From NCBI GenBank assembly GCA_016931655.1, contig JAFGEJ010000131.1, positions 1-38,675 on the forward strand: a stretch of DNA of 38,675 nucleotides. Direction: 5' to 3'. Source of the stretch: Phycisphaerae bacterium (GTDB lineage Bacteria; Planctomycetota; Phycisphaerae; SM23-33). This document shows, one piece after another, positions 18,674-30,352 of the stretch (position 1 is the stretch's first letter; every line of letters begins with the position of its first letter). The translations under genes and the position numbers were made by a program. The notes beneath the pieces are model-generated. The model was given only the letters and a program-made list of their open reading frames with translations. It had not been told where the DNA came from and searched no databases.

Positions 18674-18706
18674 AGCCGTCGTCCTTTCACGTGGCACTTT
18701 TCACAC

Positions 18707-18819
18707 GTGGCACCTTCAACGTGAGTTCCGATCCCATCGGAATTCACGTTGTGGGTGCTCGTTTACATTGTTTTGTTCTCAGACACCCACAAGCTCGAAG
18801 ACGAGCTTGAAGGTGCCAC
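18707..18819 (+). repeat. Four-way-junction repeat element, copy 1
   Basis: Outer stem GTGGCACCTTCAA (18707-18719)/TTGAAGGTGCCAC (18807-18819); arm A hairpin 18720-18748; inner stem TTGTGGGTG (18749-18757)/CACCCACAA (18784-18792); arm B hairpin 18793-18806. Confidence 0.9.
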
Positions 18820-27736: not shown

Positions 27737-29194
<1,458 letters not shown>

Positions 29195-29286: not shown

Positions 29287-29404
29287 GTGGCACCTTCAAG
29301 AATTGGTAGGTTCGATGAACCTACCGATTCTTGTGGGTGTCTTTTAATGAGTAAAGAAGCACCCACAAGCTCGTTTTTTCAAAAAACTCGCTTGAAGGCG
29401 CCAC
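29287..29404 (-). repeat. Four-way-junction repeat element, copy 2 (opposite orientation to copy 1)
   Basis: Outer stem GTGGCACCTTCAA (29287-29299)/TTGAAGGCGCCAC (29392-29404); arm hairpin 29300-29330; inner stem TTGTGGGTG (29331-29339)/CACCCACAA (29360-29368); arm hairpin 29369-29391. Confidence 0.9.
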
Positions 29405-29452: not shown

Positions 29453-30352
29453 TCATTGCTTCCGTCGGGTTGCCAGCCAGGCGAAGGCGGCGGCGGGATC
29501 GAATTCATGCCCGCCCTCAAAGATCGTCACTCGGGCCGGCCCCGCCTGCCGGCGGAAGAGGATCGCGTGTTTTCGATCCGTTTCCTTGCCGCGGTAGGCG
29601 ATGTTCAGGGGAACACACTCCTTCTCGGCCATGTGGCGGATATCGGCCTGGGGGATTTGCTTTTCCTTCTTGCCATTGGCGGCGGCCAGTACATTGAACG
29701 CCAGCAGTGAATGCAAAATCGGCACGGACCCGGTGTGCCCGTCGTGAATGCCGGCGTTGATGTCCATCGGCAGGCCTGCCGCCTTGCGAAGATAGGTTCG
29801 CGGGCTGCGATGCCTGTATTGTGCATCGATGGTCCTGGACTTACCAGGCGGTCCTCCGCAGACGGCTTCGAGCATCTTCCAATATATCCGCCCCGCAAGT
29901 TTGGTTTCCGCGTGCCATTTTACGAGGTCGAAAATCGGCACCCACACGCTGGCCGCCGCCCAGAGTTTCGGGGCTTTGGAGACCATCATCAACGTCATGT
30001 GGCCGCCGCCGGAGACGCCCAGGAGGTAGATTCGCTTCGGATCGACGCTGGCGTTGGCGCGGGCAAAGGCGACGGCGTCGAGCACGTCCTGAACCGCCAG
30101 GTCCGACGCGCAGGCGAGGGGATTGTCGTTTCGGCCTCGAAAGTGAGGATGAATGAACACCCAGCCGCGTTTGCGAACCTCCGAGAGATAATCCCCCTGA
30201 ACGGAGGGGATATCGAATCCGTGGCTCCATTGATGCAGCGCAACCAGCAACGGTGCGGGTTTGGCCTTCGGGCCGAGAGTACCGCGCGGAGCGTAAAACA
30301 TCGCCGGCTGGATTTTGCCGTCCGCGGAACTGGAGATGTGCACTTCACGCAT
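29453..30352 (-). CDS. Alpha/beta hydrolase (prolyl-oligopeptidase/esterase-like)
   Basis: LLVALHQWSHGF, nucleophile elbow LLGVSGGGHMTLM, C-terminal FEGGHEFDPAAAFAWLATRRK. Confidence 0.8.
   Translation of the reverse strand: MREVHISSSADGKIQPAMFYAPRGTLGPKAKPAPLLVALHQWSHGFDIPSVQGDYLSEVRKRGWVFIHPHFRGRNDNPLACASDLAVQDVLDAVAFARANASVDPKRIYLLGVSGGGHMTLMMVSKAPKLWAAASVWVPIFDLVKWHAETKLAGRIYWKMLEAVCGGPPGKSRTIDAQYRHRSPRTYLRKAAGLPMDINAGIHDGHTGSVPILHSLLAFNVLAAANGKKEKQIPQADIRHMAEKECVPLNIAYRGKETDRKHAILFRRQAGPARVTIFEGGHEFDPAAAFAWLATRRKQ

Follow-up and report, generated by a model that had tools for sequence, protein, structure and literature searches.

A dispersed family of REP doublets with a conserved hairpin foot and hypervariable, self-complementary arms in Phycisphaerae

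The intergenic repeat at 29287..29404 (unstranded) of the window, the whole stretch of 38,675 nucleotides analysed here, is a REP doublet of the BIME/REPIN type, in which two inverted REPs carry GTGG tags facing outward. It belongs to a family dispersed through the window's own assembly (G000) and that of a relative of the same genus (G001), in which the tag and the lower stem of the hairpin are retained and the arm above them is distinct in most copies and still self-complementary. Very probably these are non-autonomous elements moved, now or formerly, by a RAYT (HUH/Y1) transposase acting on single-stranded DNA, which would read the tag and the lower stem and for which the arm would be a structural prop.

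Anatomy and folding of the repeated unit

The initial annotation drew the repeat as a four-way junction present in two copies. Its conserved blocks in copy 2 were recovered as described, namely GTGGCACCTTCAA (29287-29299) and TTGTGGGTG (29331-29339) on the left and CACCCACAA (29360-29368) and TTGAAGGCGCCAC (29392-29404) on the right. The repeated unit is half of that drawing and consists of GTGG, a hairpin lower stem GCACCTTCAA/TTGTGGGTGC of ten pairs including one T.G and one T.T, and then the variable arm; the supposed junction is two such units, inverted and with tags outward. The left REP unit of copy 2 (29287..29339, + strand) has the tag GTGG and the lower stem CACCTTCAA/TTGTGGGTG with the T.T mismatch, and encloses the arm GAATTGGTAGGTTCGATGAACCTACCGATTC (29300..29330, +), which was found once in the genome. 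An unstranded spacer without conservation (29340..29359) separates it from the right REP unit (29360..29404, - strand), which as read on the - strand is GTGGCGCCTTCAA and carries the arm GCGAGTTTTTTGAAAAAACGAGC (29369..29391, -) of the form GC-GA-G...C-GA-GC with tandem G.A mismatches on that strand. The single G-T pair ascribed to the 14-bp arm reads as C.A on the - strand, which was the one quoted; G.T applies to the + strand. Copy 1 (18707..18819, unstranded) carries CGTGAGTTCCGATCCCATCGGAATTCACG as one arm and GCTCGTCTTCGAGC (- strand) as the other, and directly 5' to it lies a truncated extra REP start, GTGGCACTTTTCACAC (18691..18706, +). Since the element consists of one unit present twice, inverted, the opposite orientation reported for the two copies says little. 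Both copies are intergenic by the positions of the window's open reading frames. Copy 2 adjoins a gene at 27740..29194 (+), which we take from its sequence to be a putative glutamate dehydrogenase, and lies in the gap before a gene at 29453..30352 (-), presumably encoding an esterase/hydrolase-like protein. Four occurrences of the block TTGTGGGTG were counted in the window (0.27 expected), all of them inside the two copies.

REPs are defined by a 5' GT[A/G]G tag and a palindrome (PMC3686654), a definition within which GTGG tags fall (PMC3686654; PMC6006769), and they are arranged as REPINs/BIMEs (PMC3116915). The tag stands directly at the foot of the palindrome here, with GTGG and GCACCTTCAA/TTGTGGGTGC in 58 half-units, and the inverted pair with outward tags and a predicted hairpin has the REPIN/BIME layout. 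The earlier statement that no described family matched was therefore not upheld at the level of anatomy, which fits the published definition (PMC3686654) and arrangement (PMC3116915).

In computed folds, the whole of copy 2 as single-stranded DNA reached -35.0 kcal/mol (z = -8.9). For the halves folded alone, the GTGG strand gave -19.0 kcal/mol (left) and -11.6 (right), and the complementary strand -16.5 and -8.2, respectively. Each half folds singly with T.T as the sole mismatch, so that the four-way junction has a competitor in a pair of separate hairpins. The GTGG strand was the better folder for 38 of 44 unique arms in G000, for 17/26 in G001, where the bias is weak, and for 48/48 in genomes of genus g9. 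The strong fold and the intergenic position would also suit a cis-acting RNA such as a terminator, an attenuator or a four-way-junction regulator conserved for its structure. Such a role is very improbable, as the window scan returned no Rfam family above the gathering score (nor any tRNA or tmRNA), the copies lie between unrelated genes in variable number, single REPs stand alone and others surround transposase genes; it is disfavoured in particular because orthologous sites are empty, as described below.

Distribution and arm diversity

Copies were sought with the half-unit pattern GGYRCCNWCAA-N(6-36)-TTGTGGGTG, with the reversed pattern as control. G000 (2.82 Mb, 289 contigs, 90% complete) contained 58 exact half-units spread over many contigs against 0 for the reversed pattern, and GTGGCRCCTTCAA with up to one mismatch gave 77 matches against 4 for its reversed control. 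Half-units numbered 91 in G001 and 31, 23, 34 and 6 in four genomes of genus g9, and the other relatives, of 60 searched by this pattern, had no match except one stray in G048. Among the matches listed in a scan of named genomes, most were from Planctomycetota MAGs, many of them Phycisphaerae. The few single matches in Paraburkholderia, Bacteroidales and Patescibacteria have unpaired arms and look like chance. A match in a Smithella sp. MAG (JAAZHX, L181) has the arm GCCGTAGGC, the same as in the Planctomycetota MAG VRUI, and reflects either misbinning of the contig or a transfer. Dispersal of this order is what is expected of a REP, the extragenic position being read for the two window copies, and a dispersed element with a conserved scaffold, proposed from two copies, was borne out by these counts. 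The contig number of G000 and the closeness of several copies to contig ends could point to an assembly or binning artefact of a fragmented MAG; this is scarcely credible, since the family occurs in independent assemblies from several projects and sits between conserved flanks in two species.

In the G000 and G001 loci 53 doublets were counted, with lengths from 84 to 214 nt, and the outward-facing doublet was the predominant arrangement. Spacers are unrelated in sequence and length among doublets, and lone half-units were seen at L021, L028, L038, L041 and L048, because of which the half-unit is regarded as a unit in its own right. These two features would be compatible with the single REP as the unit of movement and doublets arising by repeated insertion. 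We consider this improbable, as outward doublets dominate, g9 doublets combine a 17-nt arm and a 27-nt one at an almost invariant spacing, and singlets are decayed REPINs in the literature (PMC3116915). Tandem truncated REP starts were also observed 5' of a full REP (L023:1709-1760, L015:1489-1514, L033 at about 1666, L038:1735-1747 and G001:C68:1980); they run from GTGG through the hairpin loop plus about four bases, with a period of 20-27 nt, and look like slippage at the hairpin. Another palindromic repeat, CTGCGTAGCGGCTACGCAGAGCAGGG and similar, was noted within or beside the spacers of L015, L035 and L036 and after L042.

The arms were expected from the two window copies to be hypervariable and yet palindromic, and both properties were confirmed. 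Distinct arms made up 44 of the 60 in G000. When pairing was scored between positions i and n+1-i with no bulges against 2000 shuffles, the 44 unique arms had 384/469 Watson-Crick pairs (shuffle mean 126, maximum 160) and the G001 arms 164/205 (mean 57, maximum 79). The g9 arms are runs of YGNAR pentamers, to which 312/318 pentamers conform, and consist of 1, 3 or 5 pentamers with three exceptions having 2; of the 223 closing pairs that join mirrored pentamers, 218 are Watson-Crick (null mean 201, maximum 211). By analogy with known DNA structures rather than from a computed fold, the central pentamer could form a C-GNA-G triloop and the mirrored pentamers would pair through G.A. The shortest arms are GCGAAGC, GCGCAGC, GCGGAGC, GCGATAGC and GCGCAAGC. 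They have the GNA/GNNA form of DNA mini-hairpins such as d(GCGAAGC), which are reported to be exceptionally stable (PMC4686876), with the difference that here they are natural and lie within a REP, and that most of the longer arms are built of an odd number (3 or 5) of YGNAR pentamers.

REP-flanked RAYT genes in relatives

A RAYT gene on the - strand of G032:C39 (L138:1243-1854) is bracketed by GTGGCACCTTCAAGCGTAGCGCAGCGAAGCTTGTGGGTGC and its inverted partner, 22 and 11 nt away, so that the locus is a doublet with an intact RAYT gene exactly filling the spacer. The protein has the motifs of a RAYT, with the HUH motif EHVHLL and the catalytic-Tyr motif GGGYDRN; it scored 101 bits, above the cut-off, with NCBIfam REP_Tyr_transpos (NF047646) and matched TnpA_REP 4ER8 with E = 1.6e-8. 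In JAGGWF (L192) a broken RAYT has the same REP to either side, and in JAAYQH (L222) a RAYT has it on one side. The association with a RAYT that the initial annotation had proposed to look for was thus found in three other Planctomycetota genomes, in two of them with the REP on both sides as in a REPtron. The JAGGWF gene is in two pieces with an insertion (L192:515-1212).

Within the clade of the L138 RAYT, GGTG-tagged hairpins were present at up to 500 nt in 21 of 22 members, in 16 of which they stand inverted on both sides, with a lower stem particular to each member. This combination is the published pattern of RAYT-REP pairing. REP, BIME, REPIN and REPtron are all established categories, and the present element is of a kind already known because the same REP adjoins RAYTs and tagged hairpins accompany these relatives.

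A cognate RAYT was found neither in G000 nor in G001 despite the many copies in both, and a search of G001 for RAYTs of the L138 clade returned none. The family may be orphaned in these genomes, or the gene may be absent from the fragmented assemblies; a missed gene in G000 is possible because that assembly is 90% complete. The G000 copies would accordingly be a population whose transposase was lost or was not assembled. Together with the rarity of target duplications and the fact that no transposition has been observed, this absence weighs against the RAYT explanation.

Two RAYT genes of G000 were considered as the cognate gene and rejected. The one on C74 (L017:2117-2671; 166 bits with NF047646) lies between two family copies and is bracketed by GTAGGGCGTGCAAC...GTTGCACGC repeats of its own; it was ruled out by these GTAGGGCGTGCAAC REPs and by having no homologue in G001, which holds 91 half-units. 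The one on C253 was ruled out by its flanking REPs, which are GGTGCCGTGG. A second REP family, GGTGCCGTGGTTCGCG-arm-AACCACG, which matches 106 times in G001 and 11 times in G000, flanks the C253 gene and carries CGNAG-type arms like those of the present family. The IS200-like Y1 genes that were checked had no family copy nearby.

A Y1/RAYT-like domain with H-x-H and the Tyr kept was also observed in frame inside valyl-tRNA synthetase at L399 (G001:C90), L401 (G000:C245), L396 (G021:C12), L397 (G028:C52) and L395 (G007:C211), the synthetase hosts being identified by motif reading alone. The insert is just 5' of the TTRPET motif in G001, G021 and G028 and nearer the C-terminus in G007; in G000 (L401) the frame is open across the insert and ends ahead of the TTRPET motif. 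A leucyl-tRNA synthetase of G000 (L400, G000:C242) has a similar insert before TTRPDT. The inserts of L399 and L397 are flanked by inverted GTGGC-tagged repeats that are translated through as protein.

The tag, the mismatch and two lower-stem bases matter to TnpA_REP of E. coli, and exchanging the upper stem for its complement is tolerated, whereas its removal abolishes binding; the upper half of the REP is a sequence-non-specific structural part in vitro (PMC8266576). These requirements predict a fixed tag, a fixed mismatched lower stem and a free, always-folded tip in the present family. A RAYT would recognise the GTGG tag and the T.T-mismatched lower stem on one strand only, and the arm above would need only to be a folded prop, so that its sequence could drift or be replaced freely while remaining self-complementary.

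Orthologous sites, known systems and the variable tip

The flanks of G000 copies were compared with the G001 element loci and with about 1.15 Mb of further G001 sequence (of 4.2 Mb). Empty sites, which had likewise been proposed as a check, were found: at least four orthologous places in G001 (those of L016, L022, L034 and L040) have no element, and that of the singlet L048 has none less cleanly. Copy 2 is probably also missing from its G001 site: no element follows the homologue of the putative glutamate dehydrogenase gene there, although the gene on the opposite flank has been relocated. Direct repeats of 28 and 24 nt flank L016 and L034, respectively. The 28-nt repeat flanking the copy at L016:1678-1798 is present once in the empty G001 site. 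A general target-site duplication was rejected, as only 2-3 of the 53 doublets show a long direct repeat. At L037 the left flank lies beside one G001 copy and the right flank beside another, as recombination between copies would give; an assembly join is also possible.

Doublets are present in both species at four sites (G000/G001 contigs C18/C51, C43/C166, C74/C102 and C138/C126), where the scaffold is kept and all the arms differ. Both insertion edges align at C74/C102, and therefore one ancestral insertion is likely; there a single compensatory pair separates the left arms, and the right arms are unrelated. Such sites raise the possibility of an active process, gene conversion between copies or hairpin-tip processing, that exchanges or regenerates the arms of standing copies, the scaffold being a docking frame for a changing tip. 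The unchanged arm of the singlet REP at C210/C51 in both species and the recurrence of the pentamer arm type in the second REP family, whose lower stem is different, would also accord with exchange. Against it, the sites are few, some changes are single compensatory pairs (GCGATTCTTATCGC vs GCGAGTCTTCTCGC), and independent insertion into the same gap, which is unlikely only at one of the four doublet sites, is possible at those other than C74/C102. We hold this explanation to be possible but not probable. It is slightly more doubtful that the hairpin tip is an exchangeable module, its arm replaced or rebuilt as a self-complementary sequence on a standing element during the RAYT cycle or by conversion, with arm turnover outpacing that of the scaffold.

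The features shared with known REP/BIME/REPIN and RAYT (TnpA_REP) systems are GT[A/G]G at the hairpin foot, a mismatched imperfect palindrome, one favoured strand, outward inverted doublets, singlets and a RAYT gene between inverted REPs. The present family differs from them in an upper stem that is hypervariable within one genome (44/60 distinct) rather than of a few types, in a REP consensus not found in the literature searched, and in having no cognate RAYT seen in its own genome. In E. coli, REPs y, z1 and z2 of TnpA_Ec similarly have a conserved lower stem with a mismatch and an upper stem-loop varying in length and sequence by type (PMC8266576), but these are three types, each fairly conserved within, whereas most copies here have a private arm. 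Variable or modular REP loops have already been described (PMC3733652). Like the present family, GTAG-3, GTAG-14 and GTAG-20 have modular loops with alternative complementary termini; the self-complementary inner region of GTAG-14 reaches 27 bp and GTGG replaces GTAG in Verrucomicrobial GTAG-20, but their stems differ and their loop variants are of two or three types (PMC3733652). TIRtrons/TIRYTs and integron attC sites resemble it in having inverted repeats around a Y1 transposase or a folded single-strand substrate; the GGGGWSAS TIRs and attC R/L boxes are absent here, where the tag is GTGG. An integron attC was rejected on inspection, there being no GTTRRRY/RYYYAAC R/L boxes and the conserved ends being GTGGCACC/GGTGCCAC. 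Neither this REP nor any REP family with mostly private arms was found in the literature searched, and the family, like the extreme diversity of its arms, appears to be unrecorded.

The family is a natural counterpart of the in vitro result that a RAYT heeds the hairpin foot and that the tip need only fold. Its naturally varying tips, dozens in all and with mini-hairpins and tips that would require G.A pairs among them, are ready substrates, and the age and the route of tip replacement can be tested on orthologous copies whose tips differ. Similarly, the Planctomycetota RAYT clade with GGTG hairpins provides a series of cognate tag-stem-protein combinations for work on specificity.
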